Shown piece by piece: positions 32,758-34,940 of a stretch of 50,467 nt of DNA. This stretch comes from Flavobacteriaceae bacterium (GTDB lineage: Bacteria > Bacteroidota > Bacteroidia > Flavobacteriales > Flavobacteriaceae). How positions within the stretch are numbered: the first letter of the stretch is position 1; the number at the start of each line of letters is the position of its first letter. The DNA lies in NCBI GenBank assembly GCA_029245825.1, contig JAQWON010000006.1, positions 1 to 50,467 on the forward strand, read 5' to 3'. The notes under the pieces were generated by a model that saw only the letters and a list, made by a program, of their open reading frames with translations, was not told the DNA's origin and ran no database searches. A program made the position numbers and the translations under genes.

Positions 32758-32903
32758 AAGTAATTTTTTTAAGGTTCTGTTGACAAAAATATAAAACTTT
32801 GTAGTAAAACACTATTAACAAAAAGAAATATAACTTTTCTTTGTGATTACATTTTATTTTAAATCTTGGTAAAGTTTATTTTAAAAGGGCTAATTAGGTT
32901 TTG

Positions 32904-33488
32904 ATGAGTGAAAAAAAAAACAAAAAAATTATAATTTTTTCCTCTGGTAATGGTACTAATGCAGAGGAAATTATAAAATATTTTGAAAATAAAAAAGAGA
33001 TAAATATTCACCTTGTTTTGACTAATAATTCTAATGCAGGTGTTTTAGAAAGAGCAAAAAAACATAAAATCCCTGCAATTTTTTATAATAATGAGGCATT
33101 TGAAAAAAAAATAGTTTTTGAAATTTTAAATTTTTTAAACCCAGATTTAATTGTTTTGGCAGGATTTCTTAGGAAAATACCAGACATAATTATTTCCAAA
33201 TTTCCCAATAAAATCATCAATATACATCCAGCTCTTCTGCCTAGTCATGGCGGGAAGGGAATGTATGGTAATAAAGTTCATAAAAGCGTAATTAGATCTA
33301 ATGACTCAAAAACAGGTATAACAATTCACTTTGTAAATGGTGATTACGATAAGGGGGAAATAATTTTACAAAAATCTATAAATGTTGAGTCTAAAGATTC
33401 ACCGGAAAGTCTTTTAAAACGAGTTCAAAAATTAGAGCACAAATTTTACCCTTTAATTATTGAAAAGCTTCTAGATGAACAAAGCTGA
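32904..33488 (+). CDS. purN: Phosphoribosylglycinamide formyltransferase
   Basis: '[15 protein letters not shown]', '[11 protein letters not shown]', '[19 protein letters not shown]', '[16 protein letters not shown]'. Confidence 0.96.
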
Positions 33489-33963
33489 TAAGGAAATATT
33501 GTTATTTACTGATGGATCATCAATTGGGAATCCTGGTCCCGGAGGATATGGAATAGTTATGGAATTAAAAGACACAACTTACAAAAAAGAATTTTCAAAA
33601 GGGTTTAGATACACGACTAATAATAGGATGGAATTAATGGCTATAATAGTTGGATTGGAATCAATAAAAAAAGAATCTTCTAAAGTAAAAGTTTACTAAG
33701 ATTCAAAATATGTCATTGATTCTATTAATAATAAATGGATTTTTGATTGGCAGAAAAAAGGATTCAAAGGAAAAAAAAATCCTGATTTATGGGAAAGGTT
33801 TATTAAAGTTTATAAAAAAAACAATTTGGATTTTAAATGGATCAAGGGACACAATTCCCATCCGCAAAATGAGCGCTGTGATTTTTTAGCTAATACCGCT
33901 GCTAAGAAAAATGACCTGATTAAAGATGAATATTATGAAAATATTTCAAAATATAATGATTAA
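33475..33963 (+). pseudogene. rnhA: Ribonuclease HI interrupted by an in-frame TAA at 33697-33699
   Basis: First 74 codons '[22 protein letters not shown]...[16 protein letters not shown]', then TAA, then same-frame 'DSKYVIDSINNKWIFDWQKKGFKGKKNPDLWERF...WIKGHNSHPQNERCDFLANTAAKK' to TAA at 33961-33963. Both halves are clearly RNase HI. Confidence 0.9.
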
Positions 33964-34016: not shown

Positions 34017-34940
34017 ATGAATAGTAAATTATTAGTTGTGGGTACTATCGCTTATGATACTATTCAAACTCCATATGCCAAAGTTGATAAAATTTTTGGT
34101 GGATCAGCAACTCACATTGCTTTAGCCTCATCAAAATTCAACCTAGATTGTTCAATAATATCAATTGTCGGGAATGATTTTGAAAAGAAATATTTAGATC
34201 TTTTGAGAGAAAAAGGCATTAACACTTCTGGGATTAGCATATCAAAAAAAGGCAAAACATTTCAATGGAGTGGGCAATATTTTTCTGATATGAAAACTAG
34301 AAAAACAATTGATACTCAACTTAATGTTTTAGAGGAATTTGAACCTAAAGTAATAACAGAATTATCAAATCCTGATATTTTAGTTCTGGCAAATTTACAC
34401 CCAGAAATACAGATTGACACCCTAAATCAGATTAGAAAAAAACCTAAACTAATTGTTTTGGATACTATGAATTTTTGGATCGAAAACTTCCGATCGCCTT
34501 TAAATAAGATAATCTCAATGGTTGATGTAATTTCAATAAATGATGAAGAGGCTTTAATGTTAACAGGAGAAAATTCAATTACCAAAGCAGTTAAGGAAAT
34601 AATTAATATGGGGCCTGAATTTGTCATAGTTAAAGAAGGGCATAAGGGGGCTTCACTTTTTTATAATGAAAAAAGCTTTTTTATCCCTTCTTTTCCAGTT
34701 AAAGAAGTTATTGATCCCACTGGTGCTGGAGACAGTTTTATTGGGGGGTTTGTTGGTTATCTGGCCGAACAAGATCAAATTTCAATTGAATCAATTAAAA
34801 AAGCTTTAATATATGCTTGTGCAATGGGTTCATTCATTGTAGAAAAATTTGGATCTGAAAATTTAATTAATTTACCTGCTGAATCAATTAAATTAAGAGT
34901 TAATGCGATTAGAGAAATGACTAAATTTGAAAACCAATAA
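34017..34940 (+). CDS. PfkB family carbohydrate kinase
   Basis: 'FGGSATHIALASSKF', 'VIVKEGHKGASLFYN', 'VIDPTGAGDSFIGGFVGYLA'. Confidence 0.93.
   Translation: MNSKLLVVGTIAYDTIQTPYAKVDKIFGGSATHIALASSKFNLDCSIISIVGNDFEKKYLDLLREKGINTSGISISKKGKTFQWSGQYFSDMKTRKTIDTQLNVLEEFEPKVITELSNPDILVLANLHPEIQIDTLNQIRKKPKLIVLDTMNFWIENFRSPLNKIISMVDVISINDEEALMLTGENSITKAVKEIINMGPEFVIVKEGHKGASLFYNEKSFFIPSFPVKEVIDPTGAGDSFIGGFVGYLAEQDQISIESIKKALIYACAMGSFIVEKFGSENLINLPAESIKLRVNAIREMTKFENQ

Follow-up and report, generated by a model that had tools for sequence, protein, structure and literature searches.

A single in-frame TAA in rnhA of a flavobacterial draft genome is most likely an assembly error or a recent private mutation

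The gene for ribonuclease HI (rnhA) in a fragmented flavobacterial draft genome carries a stop codon inside an otherwise normal reading frame, which raises the question of whether the enzyme has been lost, the codon is read through, or the assembled base is wrong. The window, namely, the whole stretch of 50,467 nucleotides analysed here, holds rnhA at 33475-33963 on the forward strand, with an ATG at 33475, a terminal TAA at 33961-33963 and a sole inner stop at codon 75 (TAA, 33697..33699). Codons 1-74 (33475..33696) encode the catalytic residues Asp13 and Glu53, and codons 76-162 with the terminal TAA (33700..33963) encode the DSKYV (Asp76), WIKGH and NERCD motifs. Translated through the stop as though it were a residue, the product matched the Pfam RNase_H domain (PF00075) over residues 6-143 (E 3.1e-38; 131.6 bits against a cut-off of 25.8), scored 127.7 bits against the same family in the genome-wide search, and could be aligned to RNase HI structures of the E. 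coli type over most of the protein. Asp13, Glu53, Asp76 and the Asp of NERCD lie in one frame and aligned to RNase HI chains, and the last two are encoded beyond the TAA. The domain and the D-E-D-D residues of RNase HI are thus present, and the uninterrupted open reading frame is not.

Sequence and translation agree with the preliminary description, which reported a full-length RNase HI frame with one TAA at codon 75 and no other lesion; the alignment to the gene of the congener was gapless, which excludes a frameshift or indel, and the frame is otherwise open. The same description placed the stop before the "third catalytic aspartate". The TAA lies immediately 5′ of Asp76, which in the D-E-D-D set comes third among the catalytic residues but second among the aspartates. 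If the stop is real, translation would end after 74 residues, and the fragment would lack Asp76, the conserved His and the last Asp, as had been noted for the last two catalytic acidic residues. Re-initiation past the stop was rejected, because no ATG, GTG or TTG follows in frame before codon 118, where the first such codon is a TTG (33826). The earlier statement that no start follows closely therefore holds for these three codons; ATT is present at codons 81, 84 and 89.

A formyltransferase-domain gene upstream (32901..33488, forward strand; PF00551, E 1.5e-41), probably purN-like, has no in-frame stop in comparison with the congener, and its 3′ end overlaps the start of rnhA. A PfkB-family kinase gene downstream (34017..34940, forward strand; PF00294, E 5.3e-38) is likewise intact in the congener comparison. 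The Rfam scan of the whole window returned no match, and codon 75 lies far inside the window, away from its edge. Here, rnhA is an ordinary chromosomal gene of a small-genome bacterium related to flavobacterial metagenome-assembled genomes.

The stop was then compared with codon 75 in relatives. The congener (G001) is the one other genome in the genus, and the closest comparison is thus made at genus level; its rnhA is collinear and gapless with 88% protein identity, an intact frame and TCT (Ser) at codon 75. The residue at this position was Ser or Thr in 47/47 relatives with the codon read, in accordance with the expected [T/S]DSxYV motif, and a stop was found in none of them. Among the genomes read, this assembly alone thus carries the stop. 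The preliminary description regarded intact frames in sister genomes as a mark of error, and this is what the congener has at genus level. A single C-to-A change from TCA had also been proposed; this is possible, TCA being a common codon at the site among relatives; with TCT in the congener, however, TCA would be a presumed immediate ancestor. A census over 400 family genomes gave a list of about 100 full-length homologs, nearly all of them free of inner stops. The census flagged an inner TAA in seven other genomes (G005, G212, G141, G325, G382, G077 and G069). Translation of five of these (G005, G212, G141, G382 and G077) showed the flagged TAA to be the normal end of the gene; in the other two, G325 and G069, a motif scan gave Thr at codon 75 and no interruption of the frame at this site. 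The motif scan of six fetched flagged genes showed an open frame through the codon-75 site in all. Same-species copies were looked for and not found: the genus comprises just the one other genome, and a pattern scan of viral contigs gave no match.

A separate observation from the family concerns the kind of RNase H present. An RNase HI of 155-170 residues matched the query in small genomes of the family, and many of the larger genomes gave only a weak match, to a protein of about 205-245 residues, which suggests that two RNase H types are split among the genera of the family.

The age of the stop was judged from substitutions against the congener. Codons 1-74 of rnhA gave a dN/dS of 0.080 and codons 76-162 one of 0.058, with 23.0 synonymous and 11.0 nonsynonymous differences in the latter part; values were low throughout the window (median 0.096, n=43 genes). 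Codons on the far side of the stop show as much constraint as those preceding it and are still under purifying selection. On these rates, the post-stop part has been under selection for nearly all the time since the split from the congener species. Equal constraint on both sides implies that the stop is very recent or not real; an old pseudogene is thereby ruled out, and what remains is an error or a variant, or else a mutation of very recent origin. A decaying pseudogene whose stop became fixed in the past, in a lineage on the way to losing RNase HI, is accordingly scarcely credible: it would account for the codon-75 stop and for some other broken genes in the assembly, but it is contradicted by the retained constraint, the low dN/dS of the window genes and the absence of any second lesion in rnhA.

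Constraint past the TAA would also follow if ribosomes decoded the codon as Ser or Thr, by readthrough or recoding, and thus made a full-length RNase HI. It is the sole positive support for this reading, and other readings account for it equally well. Against recoding, the terminal stops of the 43 window genes comprise 23 TAA, 13 TGA and 7 TAG. The residues expected at the in-frame stops of the assembly are Ser/Thr, Tyr, Glu, Lys and Arg, which a single reassignment cannot fit, and the tRNAs typed in this genome and in the congener, both of which are incomplete drafts, include none with the anticodon UUA or UCA. The differing residues, the use of TAA to end 23 of 43 genes and the tRNA set, together with the lack of a codon-75 stop in any of the 47 relatives, make recoding or suppression very unlikely, and it was rejected. 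The preliminary description had likewise rated readthrough as the less likely course, and no sign of recoding or suppression was found.

The quality of the assembly bears directly on the remaining readings. The genome comprises 1,425,100 bases in 129 contigs and is 67.87% complete. Within the window, rnhA is the only gene with an inner stop among the 43 compared. A survey of breaks covered about 658 kb of this genome and about 1.10 Mb of the congener, stretch by stretch, and found 6/258 broken orthologs in this genome and 0/245 in the congener (Fisher's exact p = 0.03; p = 0.12 when just the four genes with stops are counted). This excess is suggestive rather than overwhelming. Besides rnhA itself, the six include an otherwise intact gene of the malate/lactate dehydrogenase family (mdh; L122:4756-5682, contig C11, reverse strand), in which a TGA at codon 82 stands opposite an Arg of the congener in a conserved VPRKPGM motif. 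Near a contig end, rimM (L180:206-733, contig C29, forward strand) has TAA at codons 74 and 78 with the remaining frame open, and a PD40-repeat gene (L210:2211-3290, contig C59, forward strand) is interrupted by TAA at codon 320 of 360, a Tyr position in the congener. Two further genes on the reverse strand are broken in frame, one by small deletions (L188:10421-11091) and one by an extra base within a T run (L120:7307-7988); both congener copies are intact. A flagged deaminase gene was left out of the count because its stop precedes the start codon that is probably the true one. Neither of the two candidates in the congener was a break; one lay in an upstream start extension and the other in an antisense frame. 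Treating all five stops as errors would imply an error rate of about 3.4e-4 per base, an estimate that uses 5.6% of single substitutions in these genes as creating a stop; this is rather high for a well-covered assembly.

The codon-75 TAA is probably a wrong consensus base in a fragmented and incomplete draft, or else a minority strain variant. Either would put TAA at codon 75 in the consensus, and the real rnhA of the population would then be intact and would yield a normal RNase HI. This explanation is supported by the privacy of the stop, the constraint past it, the other breaks, and the 129 contigs and incompleteness of the assembly; the high implied error rate, the position of the site deep in the window and a conceivably viable null stand against it. 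The main competitor, a possible but clearly less probable one, is a genuine and very recent nonsense mutation, which would leave an inactive 74-residue fragment, abolish RNase HI and place the burden on RNase HII. One codon differs and the remaining rnhA looks constrained, as a young allele would before any decay, and an intact rnhB (RNase HII; a 199-aa frame without a stop) is present in the same genome. A single rnhA-specific event does not explain the isolated stops in mdh and rimM, and a second RNase HI (PF00075 protein) was not found in a search of the assembled part of the genome. Survival of an rnhA null may be possible and is not assured, because rnhA is dispensable in E. coli, where deletion strains are workable (PMC7045392), but removal of both type I RNase H enzymes is lethal in M. 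smegmatis (PMC4429107).

If the stop is real, RNase H activity would depend on the intact RNase HII, and if it is also fixed, the genome would be a natural example of a bacterium that has lost RNase HI and kept RNase HII. It is doubtful that a strain lives on RNase HII alone after a fresh nonsense allele, perhaps tolerating R-loop-driven replication, or, less likely still, that low-level UAA readthrough suffices. An error or a very recent private mutation is most likely, and more likely than new biology, because similar isolated breaks sit in other core genes. This agrees with the preliminary description, which had named three candidates, namely an error, a population variant and a nonsense mutation of recent origin: the stop is absent in relatives and the codons past it are constrained. 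Before a lone stop in a conserved gene is taken for gene loss or recoding in an incomplete draft, it should be weighed against how often similar lesions occur in that assembly.

In comparison with known systems, the gene resembles RNase HI of the E. coli type (rnhA, PF00075) in full-length similarity, in the D-E-D-D positions and in the WIKGH and NERCD motifs, and differs from it in this assembly by one in-frame TAA at codon 75. A literature search on stop errors in draft genomes returned nothing. The lesion itself resembles the spurious pseudogenes and single-base consensus errors of draft genomes, in being isolated, in a constrained gene and absent in relatives, and unrelated core genes of the same draft show similar lesions; we infer that it belongs to this class.
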